A stretch of 26,105 nt of DNA from Spirogloea muscicola. Taxonomy: Eukaryota > Streptophyta > Zygnematophyceae > Spirogloeales > Spirogloeaceae. Below the pieces are notes generated by a model. The model saw only the letters and a list, made by a program, of their open reading frames with translations, was not told where the DNA came from and ran no database searches. A program made the translations under genes and the position numbers. Shown piece after piece: positions 605 to 23,736 of this stretch (position 1 is its first letter; each line of letters starts with the position of its first letter). The DNA lies in assembly GCA_009602725.1 (NCBI GenBank), contig WELB01000085.1, positions 284,256 to 310,360 of the forward strand. Reading direction: 5' to 3'.

Positions 605-2072
605 GAGCTAGCGCTTATGGCCCCTTCGTAGTTTGGCCCCTTCGCACCTTGTCAACTCTTTTCGGGCTGGCTTATCACAGCCCTTGCCCCCACTGGGAGA
701 GCCACTTTCTCACAGTAGGAAGAGTTCTTTCCCTCCCACAATCCATCCTCCCCAAGCTCTTAGTAAGCGCTTTTTGGCCCCTTCGGACCTTGTCAATCTT
801 TCCGGGCTGGCTGTTCACAGCCCTTGCCCACCTTTCGGGAGAGCCACTAACAGCCACCGCCCTCTCCTGGAAGCGTCCTTAGTTTGGGAGAGCCACTTCT
901 CTCACAGTTGTGAGTTTCAGCGCTTTCCGGCTCCATCCAAAGGCTCCATCGGAAAGTGCCCATCCTTTTCGGGCTGGCTCATCACAGCCCTCGCCCCCTT
1001 TGCAAGGGTCCCCTTTCCTCTGGCCTCTCACAGCCACCGCCTCCCCTGAAGCATTCTTCTCCCTCCACTCCTCTCACAGCCATTGCTAGGCTGGCCAATC
1101 ACAGCTATCGCCCTCTACTGGAGGACCATTCTGTTGTGTTGCATTGGAGAGTCGTTTCTTTTCTGCTACCTTTCCCCGACATGCGGCTGCAGACTAGGTA
1201 TTGCTGAGCAGTACGCCTCACTTGTGTCTACACTATCCGGCTCCTTCGGACCTTGTTCGTTCTTTTGTGGGCTGGCTTTTCACAGCCCTCAGTAACCCCT
1301 AGTCAGCAGCCGATGGAGGTGCGCTCGTTCCGTTGGAAGCCACTGCTTTTCCCGTTATCTCCTCGAATGGGTGCAGAGTCGAGCACCCACTCGTTGTAGC
1401 CACTTGTATAGCTACGTGGTTGGTGCCTCTTGGCCCTTGTAGACCTTGTCCAAAATTCGTGGGCTGGCCTCTCACTTCCATCGCCCCCTCCAGTAGAACC
1501 ACTTCTCCTCTCTGGGTGTTCTCACAGCCACGTTCATTTGGACGTCCACTGTTCTTGGGCTGGCCTTCACAGCACGCCCCAATAGGAAAGGCTTCCTTCC
1601 TTTTCACAGTCATTTCCAATCTTTGAAATAGCTCCTTAGGGCTGGCCTTCACAGCCATTGTCCCCATTGGCACAGCCTCCTTCAGTGGTGCTGCACTGGC
1701 GTGTCTGATCTGCCGCATGCCACAAACTGCGCCGCACGCCTGGAACAGGGCTGACCTTCCTTAGCATGTCTTTGGCACTACTAGCTTCGTGTCACTGTTT
1801 CGTTTATTAATCAGGCACGAAAATATGGAACTTCACCCAATGCCAGCTAAAACGGTCTTCAATGCTGACTACAGGCTACCGGATCGCTAAAGAAGTCTCC
1901 GCCCTGCTCTTGTGAGCCCTCGTTTGCGCGTGCTGCATGACTATCTCTTTCTTTTTATTGCCGCTGACCTCACTCTCTTTTCTCGCGACCCCCTCAAAGG
2001 GCAACTTCAAATGGCTGTATGGCTGGCTCTCACAGCCGCTGACTACTATGAAAGCCCAGTCGTCGTCTACTA

Positions 2073-2395
2073 CAGTAAAACCTGTCTAAGATTATGCGGT
2101 CGGGAGGTTTGTATAACGATACACAGGATATAATGGTACAAAGGTCGCACGGCCGTCGCACGGCCGTCGCACGATCGCACGCCGTCGCACGGTCCGCCGC
2201 ACGGTCCGTCCATAGAGAATGCGTGTTATTGAGAGATATCCATAGGTATAAGCTTATATTTTGAGAAAAACATATGAAGTATGGAAATATAGAGGATTAT
2301 AAGCTTACGCCACTAAACCGACTCGGTTTGCCAGAATATGATAACGTTATACAGGATATAAGCTAATGGAGGATAATCTTAGACAGGTTTTACTG
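2073..2395. mobile_element. Pogo/Emigrant-like (Tc1-mariner) MITE
   Basis: A 323-bp element with perfect 23-bp terminal inverted repeats beginning CAGTAAAACCTGTCTAAG (left 2073-2095, right 2373-2395). It is flanked on each side by the dinucleotide TA (2071-2072 and 2396-2397), the target duplication of Tc1/mariner elements. The start CAGTAAAACCT is as I recall it for the Emigrant/Lemi1 pogo-like family of plants, so this is most likely a non-autonomous pogo-derived MITE. There is no transposase frame. The interior holds a GC-rich short tandem array (about 2145-2212) and AT-rich subterminal words such as 'ggatata' on both sides. Perfect repeat ends suggest a recent insertion. Confidence 0.92.
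2145..2212. repeat. GC-rich tandem array inside the MITE
   Basis: Six or so imperfect copies of a word like 'gtcgcacggcc' lie head to tail, in sharp contrast with the AT-rich rest of the element. It is either a minisatellite that expanded within the MITE or a captured sequence. Confidence 0.75.
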
Positions 2396-3020
2396 TACAT
2401 TGACCTCAGCACACTTGATGGATTTCAGGCGCACTTGCATAAGGCCAGGCCAAACCTCTCCTGCAGCCTCCTAGGTATTGCAAGATCGCCATGTGGATCG
2501 TCGTTGAGTCTCGTTGAGTCAAATGTGTCCTCCTTTGCATAGGGTTTCCCATCCAGCCCTTGCTCTAGCTTTTGCCTGAAAATGTAGCGGGCTTATTTGG
2601 CGCCCCTTTCACTGCATGTGCATCGAGCACGAGGCAACTCTAAGAAAGAGGGCGAGGGCTGTGAAAGACAGCCCTCAAAAAGAAGAAGTCGCACTTTTTT
2701 TTAAAACGAGAGCTGCATACTTCTCTGGGCTGGCCAATCACAGCCATCGCCCTCTACTGGAAGCGTCTTTCTTCTGCAAAGAGCCAGCCCACAAAGCAAT
2801 GACCGCCCACATAAGAGCCACTTGGAGGCGTTTCCAACGGGGGCTTCCCCTAGTGTCCACTCATTCTGGGCTAGCGTTGAGCACAGCCACCACCTCCGTT
2901 TGGAAGAGCTTCTCTCCTCCTGGCCACTAGACTAGACTTTAAGAAAGCGCTGCCATGTTGACTGGTGGCTGGGAAAGGCGGCCAGCCCAAAGGAATGGAC
3001 TAGACTTTGCACTAGACTTT

Positions 3021-3086
3021 GCCTGAACAATGTATTGGCTTGAATTAGCCTCCCTATCGTTCCATGCGCTCCGCGCGCCTTCTCTC
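3021..3086 (+). repeat. Module B repeat, copy 1
   Basis: Runs from 'gcctgaacaatgtattggct' through 'gcgctccgcgcgcc' to 'ttctctc'. Close copies lie at 9939-10003 and 22291-22388, and a reverse, more diverged copy at 7841-7897. It borders the hairpin repeats at 10010 and lies near them elsewhere, so it is probably a part of the same composite element. Confidence 0.8.
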
Positions 3087-3359
3087 TGGCCTGAGAGCAA
3101 ACGAAGTTGCATCGACGGACTGTGGTCGAGTTTTAGAGTGATGACAACGTCACGATTCGAGAACGAAGCAGCCGTTAGTGGTCACCCTTGCGCATCCACG
3201 CCATTGCAGGCGTAGACGAGCGCGCTGGCCGAGGCGCCGCGCCATCGCCCGGCCTTGGACGCGGCGGCGGCGGCAGGCGGCGGCGGGGCGGCGGCCGGCA
3301 ACGAGGGGGGCTCTGGCTCAGACCCACCAGCGCCGCCCGCTGCAGTGGCAGCGGCGGCG

Positions 3360-6300
3360 ATGGCGGGGACAGCCTCCAAGAGCTCGTCCAAGAAGAAGCG
3401 CAGCAGCAGCATTTGGGCAAAGACCACGAAGAAGAGCAGCAAGAAGGGCGGTGGCAAGTCCGGCGGCGCCGGCGGCCACGGCCGCAGCAGCGCCGCTGCC
3501 GACGGCCGGGGGCCCGACGGCGCCGAGCTGGTGCCGGTCGTGTACGCGCCCGCGCACGACCACCACGCCGAGGAGGCCGACATGCTGCTCTCGNCCCCGG
3601 GTGGCGGCCCTGCCCTTGGTGCCTCTGCCGAAGGCAGCCTCCTTCTCTCGTCCCGCTTCTCAGGGTCGTCAGGAATGGCACAGAAAACTGTGCCATTCCT
3701 ATTGTATTCCTCCTTAATGTTTCTCTTAAATCAGTTGGCACGTACTCTGTCCCTGTAATTATGCGCTCCATCATGTAGGGTGCCGTAGACTTGCACCATT
3801 GTACAAATTCTCTCGTTATGACCTCTCTCTCGGAGCTGCGACCTTGCTGGAACTTCCCTGAGCGGAGAATAGGAGATTGTTTGTAGAGGAACTGCTTGAG
3901 TAATCTGTTCTCGTCTGTGCTCTGGCCAATCGTCTGTGCTTTGGCCACTGAGCTCAATCTGGCGCCGCGCCAGCTGACTCCTTCTTGCAGCTACTGTCCT
4001 GCAGGAGCAGAAGTGGCTCATCAGCGTCATCTGCATGGTTCCCGTCTATACCCTCTCCGCTGTAAGTCCTTCTCAGGCGTAACTTTTACATGTGAATTAT
4101 GAATCAACAGTCCCCAGCTTCTCCTTGCCAATCAAGGATAGTTAGGAATTTAGCTGCTCCATTACGGCTGGCCATCTATGTGCGTGCTGCTGAGTAGCCA
4201 TGAGGCTTGCAACATATTCACGTATCAAGCTACATACGCAAACCTAACAACAGCCTCTGGTTTCATGAGTTTGCATTGACTCCTGTGGATCTAGTACATC
4301 CAATTGTTAATCAAAGACTTCATGACTTGTGTGTGCACTGACGGCTGGGAAATAGAGGCTGAAGGCAGCTAGACGTTCACTAAGAGAATGACCAAGTCAA
4401 TTGCCTTTTGATGGGCACAGTTTTTTTCTCTCTGGAGGCCAGAACTCACCATGGTCTGCGATAGTGTGCGAAATTGCTACGAGGCCTATACGATTTATTC
4501 TTTTGGGTCATACCTTATTGCCTGCTTGGGTAAGCTGCCAGTCCTGATTGCAAGGACCACTTCCTGTGGGATCTCACTTTTGGTTTCTGCATGTCACATG
4601 GCTAACTGAAACCACATGTCACATGGCTAAAAATTCCCACCAGTGATGGGGAAGCTACACCTTCTTGCAGAACGATGGATCGCAGACCCACCTCTGAGCG
4701 CTACTATGTTATGCTTTCAAGGAAGTGTATGTCATCTGCTGATCTCAGTGACCTTCAGTCAGCAACTTAATTTGTCCTGTGTATTGTCAGGTGGGGAGGA
4801 GAGGGTGATAGAGAAGCTGGAAGGTCAAGGGGTTGTGCTGGGTTCCCACCAGACACCCTTACTCAAATCTAGGCAAAGCTCCATAAGGGGCGAAGAATTG
4901 TATCCATATACACCACTGAAAGACTCGTTGGAAGACCCACCACGGACCTGGGCTCACCCGCTCCTTCTCAAGTTTCTTGTGGAGCCCTGGTTGCTTGGTT
5001 CTCACTTTTATCAGAAGGTCAAATTCGGCATTGTCCAATATGTAAGCCCACACTGAGCCACTCTTGTGCTCCAGGCTTACCCAGGAGATTGTAAAACATG
5101 ATCTAGAGCAGGCATATGGTCTGATATCTTTTCTTATCACATGTTGATTAAGTGCGTGTGAGTCTTTGACTTCAACTCTCCTTTCTGGTGAAAATAGCTG
5201 GGTTGCTGTGAGTTGCTGCACCATGCCCTTAAGAGTCACTTCAGTTGTTATTTTCATTGAAGTCACTTGGCTAGAAGTATCTGAAAGAATTTCCATGATT
5301 GTTGCAGATGATTGTGAAGCTGCTCTTTGCCTTGCTGGCACTTCTGCTTGACGCCTTTGGCCTGTATAGAGATGGTGAACTTAATGTACATAAGGGGTAT
5401 GAAGTCATTTTCCAGGCATTTTGGCACAATGCAGAGGGTTGCGCAGGACATTTCTTTCTGCAGCTTCATGGGCTCCTGTACTGAGCAATGTTATCCCGAG
5501 ACTTGTGCTAATTTTTACCTCCTATGCTTTCTTTGAATGCCAGGTATGTGTACCTCGCATTGATTCTTAATTTCAGCCAGGCGTGGGCATTGTATTGCCT
5601 GTACCAGTTCTACACAGCTACAAAGGAGTACCTAGCACCAATCCGCCCGTGGCCCAAGTTCCTGTGCATCAAGGCTATCATATTTGTTACCTGGTGGCAG
5701 GGGTTTTTGCTCAATATCCTCTTCTCCTTGGGGGCCGTTCGCCCTCCTGACTCAGATCTTGCTGGTGGAAAATTTCAGACAAGCCTTCAGGACTTCATCA
5801 TCTGCATTGAGGTAAGGACTTAGCTTCCTAGTGCCCATGTACAGCTCGATGTTACTCAGGTACGAAGCTTTATCCGCACATAAAAGCTGTGCCACCAAGC
5901 AAGCGGAGTACATTGTCTTGCTGTCTGTCAGAAGCCACCAGAACTACCACATGCTTCAGATATTGCTTGCTTCTGGATGAACACGCCCTGGGCTAAGTGG
6001 GCTCTGCTGATGAGCTTGAGATTTGCGTGGATGTCAGATGTGCATTGCAGGGATAGCCCATGTATATGTCTTCCCTGCTGCGCCTTATCAAGAGGTGGAA
6101 GGCAGTGAGATTAGCAGGGACGTCTCCGTGCTCGCCGATCTGGCAGCTGGCGACGTGCCGCCAGAACCAGGGGAAATCATGGAAAGTGAAAGGCAGGGAC
6201 TTCTGCGCTACCTTCCACCTGGCGGACAACGAACTGCCACCAGCCTTTCTGCCAGTGTGCAGGACATATTGTTCAATGGCAGCGAGCACGTGAGCAAAGT

Positions 6301-6851
6301 TGCTGTGTCAAAACCCAGAGCACAGGACTGCATCTGCAACTCATATGCCGTACATAATGAGCAGAAGACTTGTCACATTGTTAACTGCGAGCAAGCATCA
6401 CCAAGATAATGAGTGCAAGTCGTGGTACAGCATGCACTCCCAAGAGTTGCCCTCGCAATGCCTACAGTTGCAAGCAGTTTTATCACAGCAAGACCTTGGC
6501 TTGTCGTTAAATTTGACAATGTCTTCAGGCTGCGGGTTGCAGGTTGTGCGGGATGTGCGGCATACTGTGTCACAGGTTGTGGAGCCTATGGAGCGGGGCT
6601 TCAACCTCTTCAGCGCCGGGCTGGAGAGCATCCAGGGGCAGCTAGGCCGGGTCTACCCTTGGGGAGGGACTGCGGTAACAGAGGAGAAGCCCATCACCAA
6701 GGACGACAGCTGGCTGCCGTCAACTGGCCAGGGCCAGTCGTCGCAGACAGACGAGCCGGTAGGCAGCGTGAGCGACAGCGGCTTACGAAAAGGCCGAAGG
6801 CACTTTGGGAGTGTCAGTGATGCCCTGGAGAGAGGCCAGGGGCGGAGATGA
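3360..6851 (+). CDS. TMEM184/LAZ1-like DUF300 membrane protein (Ostalpha family), incomplete in assembly
   Basis: Exons: 3360-~3593, [missing exon], 4005-4061, 4421-4529, 4791-5041, 5308-5396, 5544-5811, 6038-6289, 6543-6851; every junction from 4005 onward is GT-AG and phase-compatible, giving 444 residues. Membrane segments in order: 'LISVICMVPVYTLSAFFSLW', 'YTIYSFGSYLIACLGG', 'IVKLLFALLALLLDAFGLY', 'YLALILNFSQAWALYCLYQF', 'IIFVTWWQGFLLNILF', and 'LQDFIICIEMCIAGIAHVYV'. The NFSQ and LQDFIICIE motifs and the VVRDVRHTVSQVVEPMERG tail are typical of plant LAZ1 proteins. LAZ1 proteins are reported to act at the vacuolar membrane in vacuole integrity and brassinosteroid signalling, and were found through suppression of a cell-death mutant; that role here is inference. 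The start is the first ATG in a Lys/Ser/Gly-rich leader. The first membrane-helix exon is not found between the single n at 3594 and 4005, so either it was lost in the gap or the gene is damaged. Confidence 0.9.
3594..3594. other. Single-base assembly gap in exon 1 of the LAZ1-like gene
   Basis: One n directly after the codons for 'EADMLLS'. The leader reads well up to this point. After it the plus strand no longer looks like this protein, and the expected first transmembrane helix does not appear before 4005. The n probably stands for a gap of unknown size rather than for one ambiguous base. Confidence 0.7.
3671..3700. repeat. Perfect 13-bp inverted repeat with AAAA loop
   Basis: AGGAATGGCACAG at 3671-3683 pairs perfectly with CTGTGCCATTCCT at 3688-3700 around an AAAA loop. 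It lies in the segment between the gap and the next LAZ1 exon. It could be a cruciform, a foldback artefact or a mobile-element end; no T-run follows that would make it a terminator. Confidence 0.8.
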
Positions 6852-7990
6852 CTATGCGCACAACATGCCAAGGTGTGCTAGTGCACGCTACATGAGATCC
6901 CAGCGCGACACTTGCTGTTGGACAGGACCTTGGGGTCCCTGGGTCGTCTCAAGGCAGAGGCCTTGTGCTTAGAGGTCAAGTTCCAACATTTTGTAGGCCT
7001 TCTGTGCTCCCATGGCTCACATACTTGTGACCCTGAGGTGGCAGCAACCCGTAATCTTCTGTCTGTCTCCAGTGAGGCCGTCGTGGACATTGTAGAGAGA
7101 CAAACTGGGCTGTCATAACTGAGATGGGGCAAGCAGGTACAGACATTACAAATTTTTGACTTGGACATGACAATGGGCTGTCATTATAAGCCTTTCAAAA
7201 AGATTTGATTGTGGTGCTGCATACAGGCAGGTCATTGGGTGCCTGCACAAGTGAAGCCTAATTCGATCACAGTGGGCCTCTCAGCCATGGTTTCTACTGA
7301 GGATGCTTCACGGACAAGCTCTTGAGCTTCTAATGACGCGAATGTCACTTGCGGGTACTCAAATCGCAGCTGGCCATACTTGGGGCATAATAAAAGTACA
7401 TTTGCTGGTGACAAGGAGGCGACCGAGATGCTGCGAGACCAGAGAAGGCGCGCATGAAATAAAGGAAGGCTAATTTAAGTGAACACACCGTGCAGATCGA
7501 AGGCTAGTGCAGAGAAGGGGCTACACAAACCCTGAAGGGCCTAAGTTGCTATACAACCAATGTTTGGAAGTTCAGGTGTTTGTATGTCAGAACAAAAGCC
7601 CTTGTTTGAGACCGTGCCGGAGAAGGGCTGTCATGCCAAAAACCAGCTCACTTGTAGTGATCTTAACAGATTGGAAAGTTGATCGTAGGAAATGCGGCTT
7701 GACGGATGCGTGGCAGAGGCAAGGCACCTCAACAGGCATGGGAACACGCTTCCTCAAGACGGAGTACAGGCGCAACCTGCAGCCATAGCATGCGCCAGCT
7801 TGGAGCTTGCGCAGGAGATGGCAACCAAAAGAATGAGAAAGAGAAGGTGCACGGTGCGCATGACATGAGAGGGAGGCCAAAGCAAGCCGGTACACTGTTT
7901 GTAAGAAGAACGAAGTAAAATCTGAGAGGGGCTAAGGTAAGAATCCTGAAAAGACAACCGAAGGGGGGATCCGCGTACCCATGAGTGAGC
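6852..7990. other. 3' flank of the LAZ1-like gene, no gene seen
   Basis: Neither strand yields a recognisable protein or plausible exon chain. An AATAAA lies at 7458-7463, about 600 bases after the stop codon, and might serve polyadenylation, but nothing else supports it. A reverse copy of module B (7841-7897) marks the approach to the next repeat cluster. Confidence 0.5.
7841..7897 (-). repeat. Module B repeat, diverged reverse copy
   Basis: The reverse complement resembles the copies at 3021, 9939 and 22291: a 'ggcttg...ggcctcc' word, then 'catgcgc' and 'cttctc'. It is the most diverged of the four. Confidence 0.6.
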
Positions 7991-9764
7991 ACATAAATGT
8001 CTTTGAAAGTAAATTTTTCTGGTCTGGCCTCTATTAGCCACCGCCCTCTCCTGGAAGCGTCCTTTCTTCTAGTATGGGGCGCTGGATCAAGACGGAAGGC
8101 GTCCACTGAAGGGGCTGCCGCTGGTGGCCCATCTTATCTCGCTCGCTTGCTCACTTGGCGCCAGTCTGTTTGCCCTGTACATTACTGGTGGAGTGCATGC
8201 TCGGGAGCAGGCAGCGAAAGGCCTTGCTTTTCTGGGAAATCTGGGCTGTCGAAGTTGGACGAAGGGCCCCTTTCTCTGCAGGATAACTAAAAGGAACTCG
8301 TAGTGGTGGGACCTTGACCACAACTCTGTGATTTCTAGGGTGGTTCCATCCGCTATGACTGCACTGAGGTGTTGATCAGGGTGGACCTTGCATCCTCACA
8401 TCTGCTGATGGGCCACCCAGCTGTATCCAAGCAGACGGCACAGCCACAGCAACGGTAACCACACAGCTGATTCGCAGCGTCCGCGATATTCCTCACCGAG
8501 CCCATCCGGACTGGCCACCTACAGCCATTCCCTTTGAGTCACTCGCCTTTCATACCCTCACGCTTGGCTGTAATCCGGCCTGATCATCCCCGCGACAAAA
8601 TGCGTGGCCAATTATTGCAGGGTCTGCCAGTCCCCTGCTACTTCCCCCAGGGTGCCAGACCCCTTCAGGAGGCCTTCTCCTTCTCCATCCTTTCCCCCCC
8701 TCTAGTATGTCCAATCTGCATGATCAATAGTGATTATTGAGCATCCACTTGCAAAAGTTAGGGAGAGTAGTTTCGTGTTCCTTTTGCGCTTTCCAACCGT
8801 TTCAAACTTGTCCATTCCTTTCGGCTGGCATCTCACAGACACTTCCTTACACTGGAAGAGCTGTTTCTTCTGCCGAGGAAGAGTCACTTCGCAGCCCTCG
8901 CCCCATTCTGCTTCACCCCAAAGGCTGTGAAAGCAGAAGTAGCTATTTCAAAGGGAGCGAGAAATGGCTAAGAAAGAGAGTAAGCTCATCCCAAAAGGAA
9001 TGGAGTGAGTATCAGTGATGGAGGGCCTGATGAGTGGCCAAGTACAAAGTCAAGCACATTGACAGATGTACATCAAACGGCAGTTGACAAGCCCTTGTGC
9101 CACCAGCTCAGGCTCGACCAGCTTTCTGGTGCAAAATATGAACCTCAGCTCGCTGCAGAGAGGCTGACACACACGACAAAAGGGGCGAGGGCTGTGAAAG
9201 GCCAGGCCGACCGATCGAGGAGCAGTCACACCACGCAGCTACGCAAGTGGCTACTACAGAGGAGCGGCTCCCGCCTGGCCGTCCCATCGACAACCTTTCT
9301 CCCAAGCGCGCGGTCCTCGCGGTCTTGTCTGGTCGTCCCCATCAAGATATGAAGGCCTCCCCCTTCTTGGACCTTGTCCGCCACTTGGTGGAAGAGCACA
9401 GTGCCAATAGAAGAAAGAAATAGAGGGCGGTTGGTCCTTCCATTCTATTCTGGGCTCGCCAGTCACAGCCACACTGGAAGAGTCTCTTCCTCCTTAGTGC
9501 TTCGCCTGGCCCCCTTCTTCTTGGGCTTCTTGTACTCTGCTTATTCTTTTTTGGGCTGGCTGTTCCAGCCCCTATCCTCAATGGGCGAGCTCTTTCTTCC
9601 TCGTGCTCTCGTTCCACAGCCGTCACGTCCCATCGTAAGAGTCCCTCTCCAAAGTTTCATGTCTCCCCATTTGTGCTTCCTTTGGAAGCTTGGAGAATTA
9701 ATGAGCACACACTCGCAGCAGTCATGGAGTGTATCTCCATTTGTGGGCCGGCTCTTCACAGGCC

Positions 9765-9905
9765 AGGGGACCCACTTCCAGGAGCCCAGCATCTCTGATC
9801 TGCGGCTGCTTAGCAGGGGTTACTGAGTGTCTCGTAGCAGCTTTGTTTTTGTTACTTAGCGCTTCCCCTGGCCCCCTTCTCGTACTCTGTTCATTCTTTT
9901 TCGTA
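9765..9905 (+). repeat. Dispersed repeat block, inverted partner of 22660-22815
   Basis: From 'ccaggggacccacttccagg' through 'tgcggctgcttagcaggggt' to 'ctggcccccttctcgt', this matches the reverse complement of 22660-22815 with scattered changes and a small length difference near 9840-9860. The copies lie about 13 kb apart in opposite orientation. Confidence 0.82.
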
Positions 9906-9938
9906 TTATGTAGCATTGTTTAGTCTGCACTCGACTCT

Positions 9939-10003
9939 GCCTGAACAATGTATTGGCTTGAATTGGCCTCCCTTTCAATTCATGCGCCCCGCGCGCCTTC
10001 TCT
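9939..10003 (+). repeat. Module B repeat, copy 2
   Basis: Starts 'gcctgaacaatgtattggct' and runs through 'catgcgccccgcgcgcc'. It is nearly identical to 22291-22388 except for the T-rich insertion there, and is followed at once by a hairpin-family copy at 10011. Confidence 0.82.
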
Positions 10004-10379
10004 CTCTTTCGGGCTGGTTGTTCCAGCCCCTATTCTCAATGGGCGAGCACTTTCTTCACAGCCCTCGCCCCCCCTTCCTTCCCCAATCGGGAGAAGGAAA
10101 GCATTCTCGTCGGGGGGCCAGCAAGCAAGGGGGCGGGCCCCGCAGAGTGGGGGCCCATCGGCGCCGTCCGATGCAGCCGAGGATCTTGAGGCCGCGGGGT
10201 CAACCGGGGCGCCACGGGGGAGGGCGGCGCCCGGGGGGGAAATTGAGGTGACCCCGGCCCCCGGGGCGCGGCTCCCCCTCCCTCCCCGCCCGCGGTCACG
10301 GGTACCATACAACCCCCTCGCCCCGCCGCGGTTCCCCCCCTCCGCCCGCCCCGCGCCCGGCACCGGCCCCTGGCCATCA

Positions 10380-10639
10380 NNNNNNNNNNNNNNNNNNNNN
10401 NNNNNNNNNNNNNNNNNNNNNNNNNNNNNNNNNNNNNNNNNNNNNNNNNNNNNNNNNNNNNNNNNNNNNNNNNNNNNNNNNNNNNNNNNNNNNNNNNNNN
10501 NNNNNNNNNNNNNNNNNNNNNNNNNNNNNNNNNNNNNNNNNNNNNNNNNNNNNNNNNNNNNNNNNNNNNNNNNNNNNNNNNNNNNNNNNNNNNNNNNNNN
10601 NNNNNNNNNNNNNNNNNNNNNNNNNNNNNNNNNNNNNNN
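10380..10639. other. Assembly gap (260 n)
   Basis: A run of 260 n in an extremely GC-rich region. The true length is unknown. The 5' end of the GT31 gene, with its start codon and signal anchor, must lie in or before it. Long open frames that appear to read through the gap are artefacts. Confidence 0.95.
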
Positions 10640-12733
10640 GACGGCGGCGGCAACGGCGGCGGCGGCGGCGACCGCCGCCGCCAGCGCCCGGCCGTGCTGG
10701 CCATCGTCGGCGTCAACACGTGCCACGACTGCGGGCAGCGCCGCGCCGTGCTGCGCAGCACCTGGTTCCCGGCCACTGCGCACGACCTCCGCAGGTGCGT
10801 CATCCACAACCCCCACCGCCAATGCCGCCAGCATTGGCCATGGCTGCGCCAGCGGCGGCCGCTATCACGGCCTCAGCGCCATCGGCGTCGTCGCAACCCT
10901 GCGCGTGCAGCCTGCAGGAGCGCACGGGCCTGGCGCTGCGGTTCGTGATCGGGCACAGCACGAGCCCCGAGAAGGAGGCGGAGGTGATGCAGGAGCTGGC
11001 GATCCACCAGGACTTCCTCGTCCTCGCGCACAAGGAGGGGTACCACCATCTGAGCCAGAAGACGTGAGCGCGCGCCGCCCCCATGGCCATGCCCAGGCCT
11101 CGCCCTCGGCGCCTCCGCCGGCAGTTGGGTGGCGTTGTGCCACAAGCCCGGCAATGGCAATGGCCAGCCCAATCGGCGCACGCGCTCTCTGTCCTCGCGG
11201 CATCTGGGCGAGCATGTCAGCCGGAGCCCTAGTGCCAACCAATCTGCCTAATGACTCACCTCCCGCAAGGCTGCGCCGGCTCCAGTGCTCCTAAGGCTCA
11301 TCTTAGTGCCTGATGTCGTGGTGGTGCCCAGCTATCTGTACTTCAAGACCGCAATTGAGGCCTACGACGCGGACTTCTATGTCAAGATGGACGATGACAT
11401 CTACGTTCGCCCAGGTCAGCATCCGCCAACCCCCGCCCCAGGCTCTGCTGGTACACGATGGGTCTGTAGAGTGTCTATCACTGGGAATGCACTAGACTTT
11501 GCTGACAGGTCATCAGCGTGTTTGGCTCGGCAGACCGTCTGGCAAGGGCCTTGGGCGTGGAGCGCAGCTCGCCACGCACGTACATAGGCTGCTTCAAGAA
11601 GGGCATCGTCATCAACGACACAGACCACAAATGGTACGTTGTCAATGTCCTCCGATCCTGGACACGCATTCCGCACATCTAGCGCCAGCAGCTTGATGAC
11701 TCTGGACTGAAGGAGCAATCTGGCGCACTCACTGTTGTTGAGCCGCCGCGGCGCCCGGCCCCTGATGCAGGTACGAGCCGGCCAACTGGCTAATTGGCAG
11801 CGAGTATTTCCTCCACGCCTGGGGCCCCATTTACGGCCTCTCTAAGGAGCTTGTGGAGCACCTTGCACTCATTCCTCTGACAAGGTGCGTCAGCCTCACC
11901 AGGACAGAGTCGCGTCCAGAGTTTCTGTGACCAGAGTGGACGCAAAGTGAGAGATTGCACAAGATCTAAACCAGGACAGAGTCGCGTCCAGAGTTGCTGT
12001 GACCAGAGTGGACGCAGAGAGAGAGGTTGCTGTGACCTAGCATGGGAAGGCTGCTGGTCTCTGAGTTGGATGCTGGTCGCTCACGCTGCGAGCCACCTTG
12101 GCAGCTTGCGTCTCCTCAACAACGAGGACGTCACTGTGGGCGCGTGGATGCTCGGCCTCGATGTCACATACGAGGACGACCGCCGCTTCTGCGAGACCAA
12201 GTGCTCAGATAAATCTGTGGCGGTCTGGGACCTTCCCTGGTGGTCAGGTCAGTTGGTACCCCTTTCTTGCTTAAGGCCATGCACCACTTCTGGCAACAGA
12301 GGACCTGGCGCCAAACCAATGCATACTGTATCTGTGTCCATGTTGTCGTCAAAGTAACAGGCTGTCATCATAAGCAATGGGAAGCCTTTGGCAGCTATTG
12401 CCTCGCCAAATTTGCTCATAGTGATGGTGGAGCTCCTACTTGTGGCCTGCTTTGTGTCACCTCATCTTTGGAATGTTTGAGATGCATGGTGATTGCTGTC
12501 TGTATATATGAATATTCAGAAGCGAAGTGAAGCTTATGCCACAACCCTCCACCCCCTTCCACCACACGTAACATATGGCAGGACTTTACGAGCCTGAGAA
12601 GAACATCCCCCGGCTGCACAGCGAAAACCTCTGCTCGCAGAGTCCTACCGCATCCATGGAGTACAATGGCGACCATCGGCCTCCACTATTTACCCCATAC
12701 CGCGTCATTAATGCAGGGCAAGAACAGAGGTGA
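10640..12733 (+). CDS. GT31 beta-1,3-galactosyltransferase, 5'-partial
   Basis: Exons: 10640-10794 (continues into the gap), 10911-11063, 11332-11414, 11534-11633, 11771-11884, 12105-12247, 12582-12733; all junctions are GT-AG and in phase, giving 299 residues to the TGA. The family transfers galactose from UDP-galactose onto glycans of glycoproteins such as arabinogalactan proteins in the Golgi lumen. Visible motifs in order: 'AVLAIVGVNTCHDCGQRRAV' with 'LRSTWFP', 'LALRFVIGHS', the metal-binding DDD motif in 'FYVKMDDDIYVRPDRLA', 'YIGCFKKG', 'EYFLHAWGPIYGLSKE', and the catalytic-loop 'NNEDVTVGAWMLGLDV' followed by a cysteine pair ('FCETKCSD'). There is no galectin domain in the visible part. 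The short C-terminus and these motifs resemble the smaller plant GT31 subgroup (Arabidopsis B3GALT12-14 type). The acceptor of the 11534 exon was chosen by phase and protein match over a nearer-looking cag at 11509. The exact sugar linkage cannot be inferred. Confidence 0.9.
11898..12027. repeat. Tandem duplication with hairpins inside a GT31 intron
   Basis: A unit starting 'accaggacagagtcgcgtcc' occurs at 11898 and again at 11970, a 72-bp period with few changes. In each copy GCGTCCA (11912-11918; 11984-11990) pairs with TGGACGC (11937-11943; 12009-12015). It lies wholly within the 11885-12104 intron. Confidence 0.85.
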
Positions 12734-18022: not shown

Positions 18023-18059
18023 GGCGCCAGCCAGCCGGAGCCCGGGGCCGACGGTGCCC

Positions 18060-18095
18060 CCGCCGCCGCCGCCGCCGCCGCCNGGAGGGGGGGGG
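18060..18095. repeat. CCG run, gap base and G homopolymer in the STELLO 5' UTR
   Basis: A run of CCG triplets leads to the single n at 18083, followed by a run of G. It lies 40-75 bases upstream of the STELLO start codon on the minus strand. The repeat number around the n is unlikely to be right. Confidence 0.75.
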
Positions 18096-18209
18096 GGTCC
18101 GCCGAGAGCTCGCTCCGCGTTGCCCGGGGGTACAAACCGGGCTCCGCACCGCCGGACTCCCTCTTTCGGAAACTGAGAGAGACAGCTTCTCTGCCAGGAC
18201 TGATGGTAA

Positions 18210-18255
18210 GTAAGACAACAGACCTCTCTGTCTCTGTTTCTCTCTGTCTCTTGTC
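18210..18255. repeat. TC-rich microsatellite upstream of the STELLO-like gene
   Basis: Repeated 'ctctgtctctgtttctctct' type sequence about 200 bases above the start codon; it reads as a GA-rich tract in the transcript direction. GA/CT tracts are common in plant promoters and 5' UTRs, but no function can be shown here. Confidence 0.6.
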
Positions 18256-18289
18256 ATGGCATGGGTACTGGCACGGCCCCGCCCACACT

Positions 18290-19100
18290 GCGCCTTGTAC
18301 CTTCCTGTGGGCTGGCCTCTCACATGGATTTCGGAGTTTCGGATATGCGGCTCCTCACTCGTAGTTCTTGAGATGAAGAGAAGTGAACCACTTCTCTCCC
18401 AATGAGGGCAAGGGCTGTGAAAAGCCAGCCCGAAGAGAATTGACAAAGGGTCAAAGGGGCCACAATGGCGGAGGGGCCTGAAAATGCTATGTCAGAACGG
18501 CTGGGGGAGAGATAGCGCTTTCTGGCTTGGGGATAGTTTTCCGGCAGCTAGTCTGGCGGATCTGCGGCTCCTCACTCGTAACTACTAAGTGATCCATCCT
18601 CCCCCTGTGCTGACATGACATCTTCAGGCCCCTCTGTAGCTGCTGAACGCTTGTCGGCCCCTCCGACCCTTGTCAATTCTTTTTGGGCTGGCTTATCACA
18701 GCCCTTGCCCCCATTTGGAGTGCCACTTCTCTCTTTCTGGCCCCTTTGTAGTCTGGCCCCTTCGAACCTTGTCAAGTCTTCGTTCGGGCTGGCTTATCAC
18801 AGCCCTTGCCCCCATTGGGAGAGCCACTTCTCGAACACCCATTGCCTCACTCTGGAAGAGCTGTTTCTTTGTATGCATCTGGCTGCCTCTTTACAGCGGC
18901 TCTGTGATTTTCAGCAGCCGCATTCTTCTTTGTCCCGCTTGCCCCCTCCACTCGCCGCCACCGTCTCGGCCCCGTGCCTCGGCGTCGCGCCTCGGCGTCC
19001 GCAGACGCCGCCGCCGTCAGGCCTCGTCCCTCATCACTTTGACCGTGTCCGCGCTTTTCGGGCTGCCTTCCACAGCCACCGCCTCCGGGTATAAAGAGCA
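18290..19100. repeat. Repeat cluster 3 (GGGCTGG hairpin family)
   Basis: Hairpin-family copies lie near 18309, 18684, 18786 and 19059 (+), with a reverse copy at 18404-18432. The two copies at 18684 and 18786 are almost identical over the word, its upstream 'ccttgtcaa' and its downstream 'cttgcccccatt', a period of about 100 bases. A 'tgcggctcctcactcgta' word occurs twice (about 18344 and 18561). No gene is seen. Confidence 0.8.
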
Positions 19101-20069
19101 TGACAACAAGATAACAACACATCGAAAAATGACCAGCAGTCTCCTTGTCTCCTCTCAGCACAGCTCAGAGCAGAGCAAGTCAAGGCATGTGAACGCCCAA
19201 GCACAATCACAAGGAAGGGCAATGTAATCATGTAACTCTGCAGGTGACCTTAAATGCCAATGCAGAGCTTCTTATGACCACCACTTTGTGTCTGCGTGTA
19301 GGTGTAGTGGCCTCCTAAGCATGCTTGAAAAAGTGGCTGTTGTGTTGTACATAACTACCTGAGCATCTGGGAGGGTGCAGCCCTGCTACAATAGCGCCTA
19401 AATATCGTATAGAAGGAAAAGACGCAAGCCCATCCAGCACAATCACCTAGTGCTCCCACACGCCACTCGCCCTTGCCGTTGTCAATGTGATGTCAAGGAA
19501 CTCTGCTGGCGTGCATCACCATGCGCTGGCTTGACGTCCTGGTGTCTGCCTGGGCGTTTTGCTCCAGATTGTCATTGATACTTCTGCGACCTGCGACAAG
19601 CATGCACTTTCATTGACAGATCCAGTTGGTCTATGGCCCTCAATAAGCAGGCTAAAGAAGTTGTTCCTTTTACAAGATCTAACCAGCTCGTCACATGGAC
19701 ATGCGAAAGTTACTGAGAGCAGCAGTCATGTAGCTTTGTCATAAGAGAACGATCAAGACATCATATCTATCCAAGTGACCTTCTGCTGCAGCATGCAATA
19801 CCTTAACAAGCATGACACTCACTGTCAGGCCAAGGGAAGGGTATGCTGCTTCAATACAAGAAGACGCTGTAGATGTGCGCATCCCTGCACCAAGCAATAA
19901 AATAAAGAAGTGGTCATGTAAGTACTAGCACAAGTAGTGACGACTCAAGTTACTGTCTCAACCGCGCAAATGTATCTCTAGATATTTCATCATGTTTCTA
20001 GATTAGGTATACTGCTATGACTAGATGATAACTCAATCTCACAGCTAATTGAGCTCACATTTGCTGATG
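19101..20069. other. 3' flank of the PAC3 gene, no gene seen
   Basis: Mixed-composition sequence free of the hairpin repeats. It should contain the PAC3 3' UTR at its right end. Short open frames on either strand show no recognisable domain or exon chain. Confidence 0.5.
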
Positions 20070-21709
20070 TCACCAGGCTCTGTTGTCCATGACCACAGCA
20101 GTAATGCTCTTAAGGGTCTCCTGACAGATGTCACAAGATGGTGCTCTTCTTGAGTGCTAGCTAAGGAGATTCGTGCTGTACATATCATACACATCTCTGA
20201 CAGAAAACATGTTGACAACGGGGATGTTGGCTGCTGCAAAGAAGCCTCACAGAAACTCAATCTCTAATACCTGAATATATAGCAGACTGTCCCTTCTAGA
20301 GTGGCCAGCAGGTGTCTTAGAGTGGCCAGCAGGTGTCTCATATATACATGTTCAAGACCGACGCATGCGTGATCACAGGAGGACCAAGGATGAGACAAGG
20401 ATTGCATCTCACGGTAGAGTGATTCTTCAAGCCAAGGCAGAGAACCAGCGGCTTGGTACAGCCTGACTTGCTGAGGGTGTAAATCAGCCAACAGGTGTAA
20501 GCTGCTTGCGCATCGTCTCTTTTGCCAAAGCTCTTCCCTCGTAGGTGCTATGATTCAGGGCCAGGTTTTGTATAAGACCACGCATACATGTACATGCACA
20601 GAGAAGAATGCAGATGGTGGAGATAGGCTCTGACCCAATCAGCTCTCCCAAATTCCTGATGCAGGCCTCTAACAAAGGCTGCAGTGCACAGATTGGCAGC
20701 AATTAGGGTGCAGTGCACACGCAGCAGCTTAGGCACAGCTGAGTATGAGGAGTGCAAGCACTTCATTGTTTCTGACTAGCTTAAGCTCGTGTCAAGATGG
20801 ACGATGGCTTGTCCACATGTTGGGGCATTGAGCGAGCCAAAGTGCCGTAGGCGATGCCTGGACACAGGAGGACGCCAAATATGGAGAAGGGTGTCTAGGG
20901 CAGACCTCATCGCGCCTTCCCATTAGTGTTGTGACTGTGTATGTGATGGCTCCCCCATAGCTCTGCTCTTGGCTGCAATTCAAAGCTTGGTATCGGAACA
21001 AGGGATGCCAAACTCGAGAGCATGTGTCGGAATATGATGGGGGTTTTCTCAAGAAATGTATCAAGAACGAGATGTTGTGACAATTCTAGAAGTTATAAAT
21101 TGGGCTGTGACAGTTTCTGAGGGTCATGCATGTAGGGCGCCTTGACCTGCAAAATCTTTGAAACTGCAGCTAGACTGAACTTCTGCAGGGGCACTCGATG
21201 CGAGTCTCACCGTGCATGGAGGATGGTACCGAGCTTCCTCAGCTGGGTTGCTATGACCTGGACAGAAGCCACTGTTGTGGTTAGCCAATGGTGAAGAAGG
21301 TGAGGCGACTCTTACAGGTATCATCACTCCTTCTTGGGCGGCATATATAGGGAATCCATGCTGAGGCTTTCCAATAACAAGAGCCTGGAAACGGGACAAA
21401 CGCAAAGCCCACCAGGATACGGTCGCTGTAACTGCATGTCACAAAGTCCGTGTCTTCACCCTGCGAGACCGACAAGCTTCCTTGTCAGGCAAGTCCTTGG
21501 AGACCTTGGCTCGGGTTGTGCACTGAAGTCCAGTGCTTTGGCCGGCAGTGGCCCAGTGCACGAACAGCGTGCAGAGCACCGCCGTCTCATGGGGAGAGCT
21601 CTGACTCTGACGAGCTATGGAGCAGGCAGGCAGCGCCGCCGAGGACTCGGGGAAAGGCCCTGACCTGGATCACAGCTGAGAACTGCGTGGTGGCGACTGG
21701 GAATGACAT
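20070..21709 (-). CDS. Proteasome assembly chaperone 3 (PAC3/PSMG3) homologue, 7 exons, complete
   Basis: Exons in transcript order: 21709-21665, 21460-21413, 21384-21316, 20962-20906, 20678-20635, 20470-20413, 20120-20070; 372 nt, 123 residues, close to the usual PAC3 length of about 120-125. PAC3 pairs with PAC4 and guides assembly of the alpha ring of the 20S proteasome in the cytosol, then leaves. The protein reads 'MSFPVATTQFSAVIQ', 'GEDTDFVTCSYSDRIL', 'ALVIGKPQHGF...EGVMIP', 'YTVTTLMGRRDE', 'PLLEACIRNLGELIG', 'KPLVLCLGLKNHS' and 'ETLKSITAVV'; the strand-turn pattern 'GRRDEPLL.AC..NL' and 'LVL.LGLK.HS.ETL' is what plant PAC3 shows. All junctions are GT-AG and in phase. The intron between exons 2 and 3 would be only 28 nt (21385-21412). 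The start is the ATG nearest the family start; the GC-rich frame above it is taken as 5' UTR. Confidence 0.85.
20299..20338. repeat. Tandem duplication in a PAC3 intron
   Basis: The 20-bp word 'agagtggccagcaggtgtct' occurs twice head to tail with at most a change at the junction. It lies in the last PAC3 intron and looks like simple slippage. Confidence 0.8.
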
Positions 21710-21884
21710 GGGCCCCCTGCGCTCGCCACGATGCTGAGCGAGCGTTTGAGCCTCTGGCAGCCGCGTCCGCCGCAGTCCCGGAAGCACCACCGGCTGGCCG
21801 CTGCATGCGGAGAGGACTCCAGGCACGGGGCTTCCCGCCGCCTCCACCACCGGCAGCGTGCGAGTTACCGGCAGGGTCGCTTAT

Positions 21885-21955
21885 GGAGGCGGCGGCGGCG
21901 GTGGCGGCGGCAGCGGCGGCGCTGGAAGCAGCGACGGCGGCGGCGGCAGAGCTGA
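21885..21955. repeat. GGC/GCA triplet-rich tract upstream of PAC3
   Basis: A run of ggc, gcg and gca triplets on the plus strand, about 180-250 bases above the PAC3 start codon. It would form a GCC-rich 5' UTR or promoter in the transcript direction. Translation gives poly-Ala, poly-Gly or poly-Arg according to frame and is not evidence of a protein. Confidence 0.65.
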
Positions 21956-22290
21956 GTGGGCCTGGCGGGGATACGGCTGCAACATTTATCGAGCGGCTGT
22001 AGAAGCCAGCCAAGTGCATTCAGAGGTTCGTGACTATATCAGCGAAAAGCTTTGTAAGAATTGCTTGTCGGACTTTTTCGGGCTGGCTGTTCACAGCCCT
22101 CGCCCCGCTGTTTTTCATCATTTAGCGACCTCTATGTGCTGACTCGAGGTTACTGAGCGGGGCTGGGCAGCAGGTGATGTGCATCCGTCAATGTGTTGGG
22201 CTGGCCCCTCGTGCACTATGGGCCTTCGTACTTGGCCACTCAGGCCCTCCGTCACTTAATAGACACTCCATTCCTTTTGCTGCACTCGAT

Positions 22291-22388
22291 TCTGCCTGAA
22301 CAATGTATTGGCTTGATTTTTTTTTGTTTTTGTTTTTGTTTTTGAATTGGCCTCCCTTTCAATTCATGCGCCCCGCGCGCCTTCTCTC
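22291..22388 (+). repeat. Module B repeat, copy 3, with T-rich insertion
   Basis: Matches 9939-10003, but between 'ggcttga' and 'gaattggcc' it carries nine T followed by three GTTTTT units and a G (22317-22344). Outside the insertion the two copies are almost identical. Confidence 0.85.
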
Positions 22389-22472
22389 CCTTTTGGGAAA
22401 CCACGTTCTCTAATATCAGCAGAGCCACGCCACGGGCGACTTGGAAGGCGGGGGAAGTTTCGTGTATTTGAA

Positions 22473-22622
22473 ACAAACGAAGGCCAAAGGCCAAGTACAA
22501 AAGGCAAGCACATCTAAAGACCTACATAATCTACAGCAAATTGACCCGCTCAATAACCACGGGTCAAAACATAAAGGTCGAGGATGCCTGAATGCTAGAT
22601 GTCAGATACGAAGCCCTTCTGC
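22473..22622 (+). repeat. Direct repeat, copy 1 (partner at 23188-23353)
   Basis: Shares with the second copy 'acaaacgaaggccaaa', 'gcaagcacatctaaagacct', 'agcaaattgacccgctca', 'accacgggtcaaaacataaa' and 'agatgtcagatacgaagccc'. The copies differ by a few substitutions and short indels, and lie about 715 bases apart in the same orientation. Confidence 0.9.
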
Positions 22623-22659
22623 CCATTGAGGATAGGGGCTGGACAAGCCAGCCCAAAAA

Positions 22660-22815
22660 AGAATGAACAAAGAACGAGAAGGGGGCCAGAGGAAGCCAGA
22701 GGAAGCGCTAAGAAACCAAAGCACACAAAGAAAGAAAGCAGCTACAAATTACTCAGTAACCCCTGCTAAGCAGCCGCAAATCAGAGAGGCTAGGGTCCTG
22801 GAAGTGGGTCCCCTG
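22660..22815 (-). repeat. Dispersed repeat block, inverted partner of 9765-9905
   Basis: Reverse complement of the block described at 9765-9905, including 'gggtcccctgg', 'cccctgctaagcagccgca' and 'gaagggggccag'. This copy carries a small duplication ('gaagccagag' twice near 22690). Confidence 0.82.
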
Positions 22816-22829
22816 GACAGAGCCCGAGG

Positions 22830-23075
22830 CAGCAGCGAGGGCAACCAGAGCTCGGCGGGGGGAGGCCCTCCGGCCGTCCGGGGGCGCACGGGCTAACCCG
22901 GGTATCCGGGTTGATGGGCCACGGCGCCGTGGAGCAACCGGGTTGGCTCCACGCCCGTCGGCCGATGCGCGTCGGTAGGGCCGACGCCAGGTGCTCCGGT
23001 TAGCCGAGCCGGGTCGGTCAGGACCCTCCAGAGGCGAAGGCGGTTACCCGAGCCGGGCGTCGGCAGCCCGTCGAA
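22830..23075. other. GC-rich island with internal repeats and palindromes
   Basis: Much richer in GC than its flanks, which are repeat-family sequence. It contains the facing words 'aacccgg' and 'ccgggtt' (about 22893-22910), the palindrome 'cacggcgccgtg' (about 22920), and a direct repeat 'ggttagccgagccgggt' / 'ggttacccgagccgggc' about 45 bases apart. No coding or RNA gene family is recognised. Confidence 0.6.
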
Positions 23076-23187
23076 TGAAGAAGTGGCACTCCAAATGGGG
23101 GCAAGGGCTGTGATAAGCCAGCCCAAAAAGAATTGACAAGGGCTCGGAGGGGCCGACAAGCGTTTTGCAGCTACAAAAGAAATTTTC

Positions 23188-23353
23188 GTGTATTTCAAAC
23201 AAACGAAGGCCAAATGGCCGAGTACAGATGCAAGCACATCTAAAGACCTACATACTCTACAGCAAATTGACCCGCTCAGTAACCACGGGTCAAAACATAA
23301 AGGTCGCTAATCGATGCCTGAATACTAGATGTCAGATACGAAGCCCTTCTGCC
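23188..23353 (+). repeat. Direct repeat, copy 2 (partner at 22473-22622)
   Basis: Second copy of the pair. After 'gaagcccttctgcca' it continues into a 'cagctttctggtgcaagag' segment that is also found near 9117-9135, so the element extends further than the first copy shows. Confidence 0.9.
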
Positions 23354-23736
23354 ACCAACTAGAGCTCGGCCAGCTTTCTGGTGCAAGAGGGGCCTGAAGA
23401 TGAATGGAAGGAGGGAAGACAAATCACAAAAGCAAAAAGAGGACAAACCCTGCCGCCGCCCGCGCCAGTGGGCGGCAGGACCCACCTAACCCGCCCCCCC
23501 GCCGCCTCGCAGCCACTGCAGCAGCCATAGCGTGCTGGCGCCCCACACTGCGTGTCCTCCCGTCAGCACCACGGCCTCCGCCTCCACGCCTTCGCTTGCG
23601 CCCCATGCCGCCGCCGCTGCGCCCTCCCCTGCCGCTCTGAACCCGTCCTCCCAGTGCTGCAGTCCCTCTGTGCCGGCCGCTGCCCCGATTCGCAGCCGTC
23701 GTGGTGGCACAGCAGGCCTGGAGTTGCGTGCCGAAC

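Follow-up and report, generated by a model that had tools for sequence, protein, structure and literature searches.

The R2 group of non-LTR retrotransposons (R2, R4, NeSL/Utopia, HERO, CRE) is described as mostly site-specific. UnaL2 is a stringent LINE with a stem-loop in its 3' tail, and stringent LINEs such as zebrafish ZfL2 belong to the L2 clade and are of the APE type. Helitrons code for Rep/helicase and have a 3' hairpin just before a CTRR end. In published reports, HERO and some other members of the R2 group are described as lacking a single fixed target (PMC3636483, PMC4640811), and the CCHC knuckle of the group, situated between reverse transcriptase and endonuclease, has the form CX2-3C-X7-8-H-X4-C (PMC5678591). 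It is also described that the LINE protein of ZfL2 recognises the stem generally and the loop specifically (PMC4176376), that a 3' stem-loop common to a LINE and a SINE is a known case (PMC6510757), and that Zepp and Zepp-like LINEs of green algae insert into older copies and form arrays of mostly 5'-truncated 3' ends (PMC8226300).

Results

Hairpin words in the window

We have analysed a stretch of 26,105 nucleotides from Spirogloea muscicola (contig WELB01000085.1, positions 284,256 to 310,360), referred to below as the window. A preliminary description had reported about 29 copies of a hairpin word, in both orientations, in four clusters (605-3100, 8010-10110, 18290-19100 and 22040-23400). 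Both orientations were seen, and the count agrees with the 27 places found in the clusters when up to one substitution per arm is allowed. This relaxed pattern matched 38 places in the window; considering that 30 shuffles of the window gave 15.8 on average (maximum 24), the 11 matches outside the clusters are about the chance level. The exact word GGGCTGG-N(4-8)-CAGCC occurs at 14 places (both strands, palindromic double calls merged), against a mean of 0.11 and a maximum of 1 in 100 dinucleotide shuffles of the window. All 14 lie inside the clusters, although these cover 26% of the window, and none was found outside them on either strand of the whole window. By blastn, 2,275 of the 2,379 window bases that match the LINE library are also inside the clusters, and a reversed coding-region library, used as a control, gave no match in the window.

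The remnants are collected in Table 1. The hairpins at 1639, 2727 and 22080 were left without a family assignment in the blastn comparison with the LINE library. Two of the Z ends (18529-18735 and 18754-18831) have the same orientation, one just behind the other.

Table 1. LINE remnants and hairpin words in the window
Feature	Position	Strand	Evidence	Details
Z-family LINE 3' end, hairpin 664-682	633-707	+	blastn 85.5% to Z copy; exact word	
Z-family LINE 3' end, hairpin 804-822	768-848	+	blastn 80.7%	
W-family hairpin remnant	843-871	+	blastn 89.7% to W2, E = 8.6e-4	
Z-family LINE 3' end, hairpin 971-989	962-1002	+	blastn 82.9%	
W-family hairpin remnant	1020-1051	+	blastn 87.9% to W2, E = 8.6e-4	
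W-family hairpin remnant	1089-1124	+	blastn 83.3% to W2, E = 8.6e-4	
X-like LINE tail, hairpin 1269-1287	1246-1288	+	blastn 86.0% to X3	
Exact hairpin word, without library match	1639-1656	+	word search, blastn	
Exact hairpin word, no family given	2727-2745	+	2721-2769 = library piece 83.7%	
W-family hairpin remnant	8014-8055	+	blastn 85.7% to W2	
Y-family LINE remnant, two pieces	8995-9170	-	blastn 79.8%, 83.0% to Y1	tblastn to Y protein 56.5% over 46 aa
X-family LINE 3' end, hairpin 9553-9570	9493-9599	+	blastn 80.4% to X2	
Young X2 LINE 3' end, hairpin 10011-10028	9761-10057	+	blastn 99.3% (9761-9903), 98.2% (10003-10057)	ORF end ..GTHFQEPSISDLRLLSRGY, stop ends 9826; split by other DNA at 9904-10002
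Z-family LINE 3' end, hairpin 18413-18431	18396-18461	-	blastn 89.4%	
Z-family LINE 3' end, hairpin 18685-18703, tail	18529-18735	+	blastn 87.0%	ORF end ..SLADLRLLTRNY, stop ends 18588, then 96 nt to hairpin
Second Z 3' end, hairpin 18786-18804	18754-18831	+	blastn 86.1%	
Exact hairpin word, no family given	22080-22098	+	22064-22105 = library piece 83.3%	
Y-family LINE remnant, two pieces	22123-22276	+	blastn 85.7%, 78.9% to Y1	ORF end ..SDLYVLTRGY, stop ends 22156
Y-family LINE remnant, ORF end ..DLYVLTRGY (stop)	22458-22620	-	22458-22623 = library piece 88.1%	minus-strand ORF end at 22550
Young X1 LINE 3' end, hairpin 22636-22654	22621-22842	-	99.55% over 222 bp to X1	ORF end ..SLSDLRLLSRGY (stop), then 98 nt to hairpin; 5'-truncated, without last 14 nt of X1 reference
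Z-family LINE 3' end, hairpin 23106-23124, tail	23077-23176	-	blastn 90.0%	
Y-family LINE remnant, ORF end ..ASISDLYVLTRGY (stop)	23177-23387	-	tblastn to Y protein 77.8% over 36 aa	

Conservation of the stem and copies in the genome

The hairpin stem is more conserved than the loop and the free flank, as the preliminary description had proposed. Among copies that were searched for with one flank, the hairpin being left out of the search (27 and 36 copies, with one Z copy as reference; those located by the upstream flank may include families other than Z), the stem arms are 92-99% identical, the loop 79% and the free flank 73-74%. The flank used for locating the copies reaches 84-90%, a value favoured by the search itself. 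This conservation and the clustering in the window speak for a structural or protein-binding element that is held between genes by a host function, such as a boundary, matrix attachment or replication. We consider a host function very improbable, since LINE insertion with fixed 3' ends accounts for the copies, a stem common to several families accounts for the conservation, and young copies are 99.55% identical over all 222 bp and not in the stem alone.

Across the genome, a near-identical hairpin pattern had 25,792 matches, in which near-palindromic copies are counted on both strands and thus twice, against 10 for the reversed pattern. Exact 24-mers were found 1,730 times for a tail word and 41 times for a reverse transcriptase word, with 0 for the reversed controls. 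Judged by its 5.8S rRNA, the genome appears to belong to the green lineage. The 222-bp X1 block (22621-22842) is present in at least 36 other places, with 40 of 7,949 candidates scored, and 20 retrieved loci carry it at 99.55%.

The retrieved copies have one 3' terminus in common and differ in their flanks; of 80 retrieved 3' ends whose orientation was known, 73 showed the shared terminus (an exact match in 58, a single difference in 13, two in one copy and three in another). Since the flanks differ from copy to copy, there is not one fixed target. A 5' truncation point was readable within the retrieved stretch in eight copies, each time a different one, and target duplications are irregular, with a clean 9-bp duplication in one of these eight (L024). 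In the sampled loci and the window, the copy depth along X rises from 0-1 in the first 3,600 nt to 34 in the last 60.

Architecture of the 3' tail

When the order of ORF end and hairpin was read in long sampled loci and in the window, families X, Z and W showed, from the ORF end on, a spacer of usually 76-113 nt, then the hairpin and, after about 32 nt more, a TTC/TTTC tail. Several ORF ends had no hairpin within 700 nt, or had one much farther off. Across the families the stem is nearly invariant, and the loop and the downstream tail differ.

These tails bear on two suggestions of the preliminary description. The hairpin near the 3' end is reminiscent of Helitron-like or MITE fragments, and we give this reading practically no credence: the coding region is that of a reverse transcriptase, and the 3' end lies about 32 nt past the hairpin in a TTC/TTTC tail, which rules out a Helitron identity. 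As for SINEs, short copies could have borrowed the LINE tail hairpin and been moved in trans by the LINE enzyme. Many window copies match over 30-100 bp only, and a stem-loop common to LINE and SINE 3' ends is on record (PMC6510757). This is nevertheless improbable, because LINE ORF ends lie in front of the hairpin in copies of families X, Z and W, those in the window included, and the 5' ends differ between X copies. Moreover, Rfam gave 0 matches in the window at the gathering threshold, and therefore no tRNA, 5S or 7SL/SRP head there. As far as the window was tested, the results speak against SINEs.

The preliminary description had proposed to look for covariation in the stem. In an alignment of 26 sequences, hand-picked from 89 extracted copies that had all been found by exact word, the main stem showed no sequence variation; we make no covariation claim for it because its sequence does not vary, partly owing to the way in which the copies were selected. 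A second small helix (columns 47-49/55-57) had five cells changed on both sides, with 9 of 500 shuffles as high, and was rejected as a weak signal, a version slid by +3 columns scoring as high or higher. The X2 tail folds with z -4.4 and a predicted outer helix, which found no support across families. For one Z tail and two W-type tails, folding did not exceed the level of shuffled sequences (z -0.2 to -1.0).

Coding region and element protein

Open frames in long genomic relatives span about 1,270-1,360 aa, with 1,350 aa in L038 and L039, 1,338 aa in L040, and 1,267 and 1,350 aa in further relatives. Other frames of at least 300 aa in L038, L039 and L040 overlap the long one, and in L040 such a frame starts before it and ends inside it. 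The reverse transcriptase matches RVT_1 of Pfam (E = 8.4e-16). Among proteins of solved structure, those of R2 come closest to it (5.9e-10 to 2e-9), with LINE-1 ORF2 behind (1.9e-4), the R2-type assignment being one by similarity to solved proteins and not by a tree. The APE endonuclease (Exo_endo_phos) gave no Pfam match at E up to 1. Judged from the sequence, the elements have a single long ORF without a separate APE endonuclease. A Zepp-type element, with L1-type reverse transcriptase and APE, was rejected because Exo_endo_phos had no match and LINE-1 ranked below R2 in the comparison with solved proteins.

Near the N-terminus, where elements of the R2 group carry zinc fingers and Myb, two C2H2-like motifs were seen by eye, one of them with a Pfam E of about 0.1. 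In the C-terminal part, the C, C, H and C of a cysteine/histidine knuckle are invariant in four fuller proteins. Its spacing, CX1C-X11/12-H-X3-C, differs from the CX2-3C-X7-8-H-X4-C published for the R2 group (PMC5678591). The predicted order of structural elements in a candidate PD-(D/E)XK region fits such a domain in a low-confidence model (mean pLDDT 49). D104 and D119 of this region (region numbering) are invariant in seven sequences, and its best Foldseek match is R2 (8iby_C, E = 0.043). Neither this model nor one of the reverse transcriptase with the C-terminus (pLDDT 38) is reliable enough to decide the fold. Relatives were not confirmed in viral contigs, and none was found in phage records.

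Insertion junctions

Insertions into other copies occur. Among the 80 ends, 73 junctions were read (all except L046, L051, L068, L084, L091, L099 and L100). Five of the 73 fall within a hairpin loop that belongs to another copy (L016, L027, L044, L067 and L076; for L016 the listed match is its tail run, and the loop flank was read by eye), and one further junction lies in the stem of another copy (L098). The flank starts inside the 3' region of another copy in 22 of 73 cases (two of them, L014 and L030, could instead reflect repetition of the tail of the element itself), compared with 496 of 4,000 random fragments (p = 6e-5).

These numbers would suit a hairpin that is the preferred landing site of these LINEs, with clusters growing by self-nesting as in Zepp elements. 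We regard this as rather unlikely. Of the eight 5-kb background loci, taken at arbitrary coordinates, three are all N (L010, L012, L013), so that the random fragments come from five loci, one of them (L002) being 36% N. With the repeat-rich locus L006 as the sole background (197 of 739) the excess disappears (p = 0.58), and when fixed junctions were counted in a matched way, the loop had 6 and a neighbouring T-run 4. The loop idea itself arose from two of the first 20 junctions, and the later batch added three of 53. In the 73 junctions, no targeting of the hairpin or of LINE-rich DNA stood out above the local background.

Discussion

We have identified the hairpin copies, with high confidence, as the 3' ends of R2-like non-LTR retrotransposons with a single ORF, which belong to at least three related families (X, Z and W) and have left thousands of short fragments in the genome. 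A fixed 3' end, different flanks, 5' truncation, a reverse transcriptase domain, long open frames and nested insertions were observed directly. The hairpin word is a real feature and not a new kind of element. The earlier view of a dispersed family with a conserved structural element, distinct from a satellite, holds, the copies being LINE 3' ends. The preliminary description had set against it that the copies could be pieces of one long transposon with a stem no more conserved than the rest; they are indeed pieces of long transposons, of several families and not one, and the stem is the more conserved part. Three exact hairpin words had no occurrence in the literature searched, and such an element was not named for green algae in the titles and abstract beginnings surveyed.

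In terms of mechanism, the stop codon of the ORF would be followed in the element RNA by usually 76-113 nt and then by the hairpin GGGCUGG-loop-CAGCC(C), and the RNA would finish with about 32 nt and a short pyrimidine tail. By analogy with other LINEs, the element protein most likely recognises the hairpin. It would then nick the target and reverse-transcribe from the tail inwards, presumably by target priming. Copying would usually stop early, and therefore most insertions would keep only the 3' end, the last tens to hundreds of bases. Such insertions would accumulate between genes and also inside older copies, giving hairpin clusters in both orientations without a common 5' end. We infer the endonuclease type, as well as selection against insertions in genes.

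On the one hand, these families resemble the R2 group in the single ORF, in a central reverse transcriptase nearest to R2 among solved proteins, and in 5' truncation, a fixed 3' end and irregular target duplications, and perhaps also in the C2H2-like motifs near the N-terminus and in the C-terminal knuckle with a candidate PD-(D/E)XK domain. On the other hand, their flanks vary, as is described for HERO and some other members too, and the spacing of the knuckle differs. A stem-loop in the 3' tail is also found in stringent LINEs such as ZfL2, which differ in belonging to the L2 clade, whereas the families here are R2-like. If recognition is analogous, general recognition of the stem and specific recognition of the loop would fit the shared stem with differing loops.

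Insertion into older copies and the predominance of 3' ends are shared with Zepp, which is L1-type and forms one cluster per chromosome, whereas the elements here are R2-like and dispersed over many contigs. One could imagine that the nearly invariant hairpin serves as an RNA handle for the enzymes of these families, possibly for each other's, and as DNA forms part of a preferred landing site, self-nesting making dispersed, gene-sparing islands of tails; an R2-type element would then have evolved a strategy like that of Zepp. We hold this to be unlikely.

In genome annotation it is advisable to mask these tails, which should not be taken for regulatory elements. Having one stem in common but different loops, the families lend themselves to tests of how such enzymes choose their RNA. 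A very abundant word of the genome is explained as the footprint of R2-like LINEs, and the near-identical long copies point to recent activity of these elements.

Distribution of the hairpin word

The preliminary description had reported about 29 copies of a hairpin word, GGGCTGG-loop-CAGCC(C), in four clusters of the window (605-3100, 8010-10110, 18290-19100 and 22040-23400), and our counts agree with it. All 14 places with an exact GGGCTGG-N(4-8)-CAGCC word lie within the clusters, and 0.11 places were expected in the window (mean of 100 dinucleotide shuffles). When one substitution per arm was permitted, 27 places were counted in the clusters, near the 29 of that description, and 11 outside, the latter being about the chance level. 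In the genome (153 Mb, 471 contigs), the pattern GGGCTGGN{4,9}CAGCCC gave 12,969 forward and 12,823 reverse matches, the separate places being fewer because near-palindromic copies are counted on both strands; the reversed control pattern gave 4 and 6.

Shared 3' terminus and truncated copies

In a search with window positions 22040-23420, the 222-bp block at 22621-22842 recurred at at least 36 other places among the best 40 of 7,949 candidates scored. It was present in 20 of 20 fetched loci at 99.55% identity, and none of the 20 carried an exact copy. In the reading direction of the hairpin, these loci have a common 3' terminus, formed by the hairpin, CCTATCCTCAATGGGCGAGCCCTTTC and then mostly a short TTC/TTTC run. 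The DNA beyond this run differs from locus to locus, and for eight of the 20 the upstream similarity is lost inside the fetched stretch, at a different point in each. With 60 more 3' ends fetched by ORF position (80 in all), the terminus word was found in known orientation with at most three differences in 73 and exactly in 58. A fixed 3' end, a repeat tail and scattered 5' ends are the signature of target-primed reverse transcription in LINEs. These copies probably arose in this way.

Over 13 fetched loci (L001-L013) and the window, the depth of X copies along the 4,117-nt element was 0-1 for its first 3,600 nt, rose to about 10 between 320 and 120 nt before the end and reached 34 in the final 60 nt. 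The slope is the informative part, since five of these loci were picked for hairpin clusters and three are all N, which biases the absolute values. Exact 24-mers occurred genome-wide 1,730 times for a tail sequence versus 41 for the reverse transcriptase (RT) of the same element (reversed controls, 0), a ratio that may be inflated if sister families share the tail 24-mer. A 26-mer of the Z tail occurred 1,108 times.

Families and their remnants in the window

ORF endings and the next hairpin were scanned in the window and in fetched loci of at least 1,500 bases, and the GGGCTGG hairpin was common to three families, X, Z and W (Table). Other matches showed longer stop-to-hairpin distances of 184 nt (an interrupted window copy), 317 and 461 nt, and some ORF ends had no hairpin within 700 nt. 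The protein of a fourth family, Y, is 44-46% identical to that of X over the aligned part. The 3' end of Y is unlike those of X, Z and W: its hairpin is TGGCCACACATGGCC-like and it closes with a sequence of the CATTTTC type.

Table. LINE families and their ORF ends in the window (ORF-end scan)
Family	ORF end	Hairpin past stop	Frames	Window, +	Window, minus strand
X	..DLRLLSRGY-stop	mostly 76-113 nt		9826	22753
Z	..DLRLLTRNY-stop or TRTY-stop	96-97 nt in most copies		18588	
W	..DLHLLTRGY-stop	4, 42, 80 and 100 nt			
Y	..DLYVLTRGY-stop		1,267 and 1,350 aa	22156	22550 and 23276

A library of LINE 3' ends and coding parts matched 2,379 window bases (E up to 1e-3). All but 104 of these (2,275) fall within the four clusters. 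The reversed coding parts of the library, a control without the short 3'-end pieces, gave no window matches. The young copies, at 9761-10057 and 22621-22842, are 98-99.6% identical to X elements, and most other window copies are about 78-94% identical to the library.

The sole match outside the clusters, 25643-25746, is 76.6% identical to DNA that precedes a W ORF end in locus L040 and may be a different repeat. Two direct repeats (22455-22620 and 23181-23346; 97% alike over a 77-bp core), each containing a Y-family ORF end, flank one X1 tail and one Z tail. Another repeat, ending CCGCGCGCCTTCTCTCT or similar and perhaps a further retroelement tail, lies at 3008-3087, 9926-10005 and 22281-22389 and also in locus L035; a repeat of this type interrupts the young X2 copy within its T-run at 9904-10002. 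A short element at 2073-2397 is bounded by the inverted sequence CAGTAAAACCTGTCTAAGATTAT, with TA on either side, and resembles a pogo/Tigger-type MITE. At 11898-12030 lies a pair of 61-bp direct repeats, 93% alike, with starts 72 bp apart.

Conservation of the stem

The hairpin had also been described as the most conserved part of the repeat, and this was borne out: in copies located by one flank only, the stem arms are 92-99% identical, compared with 79% for the loop and 73-74% for the other flank. The simplest reason is conservation between families, because related families share the stem and differ in the loop and downstream tail. By analogy with stringent LINEs, for which the abstract of PMC4176376 describes demonstrated binding of the tail stem-loop by the LINE protein, the stem may be a handle for the element's own reverse transcriptase.

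Nesting of copies

Among the X flanks, 22 of 73 start within the 3' region of another copy, and five insertions lie in the hairpin loop of another copy. Of random background fragments, drawn from five loci only, 496 of 4,000 start in a LINE 3' region (p = 6e-5); against the richest background locus alone (197/739) there was no excess (p = 0.58). The matched junction count was six for the loop and four for the T-run. Thus, insertion into older copies occurs, and neither a preference for them beyond the richest-locus background nor one for the hairpin over the T-run was demonstrated. Green-algal Zepp LINEs also nest and build arrays of 3' ends, according to passages of PMC8226300, but they are L1-type, whereas the present elements are R2-like.

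In a small sample, targets of Y may differ from those of X. A start in a library 3' region was seen for one of 18 Y flanks (L118-L135) and for 22 of 73 X flanks (Fisher p = 0.035), and the GC content of the flanks has a median of 0.62 for Y and 0.56 for X (p = 0.04).

Unusual copies

Loci L038 (71-5523) and L039 (minus strand) share a 5.45-kb unit, 99.98% identical, whose 5' end repeats the 3' end of the same LINE in inverted orientation over 945-947 bp, so that hairpins of opposite orientation stand at both termini. In L039, the 5' flank of the unit recurs inverted on the 3' side (85.6%, 104 columns), which may reflect either a genuine inverted duplication or an error in the assembly. X copies in L040 (1116-1484), L107 and L108 have an apparently common 172-bp leader directly after another LINE tail, matched over differing lengths (167, 132 and 430 bp), as if transcripts had started in the tail of the upstream copy. 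In L115, the end of an X-type ORF and a LINE tail, at about 1300-1500, adjoin a 5.8S rRNA gene with N at the junction, possibly an rDNA insertion or an assembly join.

Coding region and relationship to R2

The long frame upstream of the X 3' end has 1,350 aa in L038 and L039 and 1,338 aa in L040. When the final 400 aa of the L034 frame served as query, 13 of the matches listed had open frames of 1,324-1,363 aa (104 of 21,098 first-look candidates scored). The element protein contains an RVT_1 domain (E = 8.4e-16). A search with a profile built from four sequences ranked R2 retrotransposon proteins first among solved relatives (5.9e-10), with R2 chain 8gh6 only at 1e-3 and other reverse transcriptases and LINE-1 ORF2 at 1e-4 or weaker. 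C-terminal to the RT, the residues C, C, H and C are conserved, as is an acidic region. The predicted order of secondary structure there is that expected of a restriction-like endonuclease; the model is poor, however, and its top Foldseek match, R2, is weak (E = 0.043), so that the restriction-like type is a candidate assignment.

As passages of PMC3636483 and PMC4640811 describe them, R2-group elements are LINEs with one ORF, in which a PD-(D/E)XK-like endonuclease comes after the RT, and are mostly site-specific, HERO and some others excepted. On the one hand, the present elements resemble this group in the similarity of their RT, the layout of the ORF, the precise 3' end and the truncated 5' ends. 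On the other hand, their knuckle spacing differs from that published for it. We file them as R2-like, as further members of an already known kind of retrotransposon.
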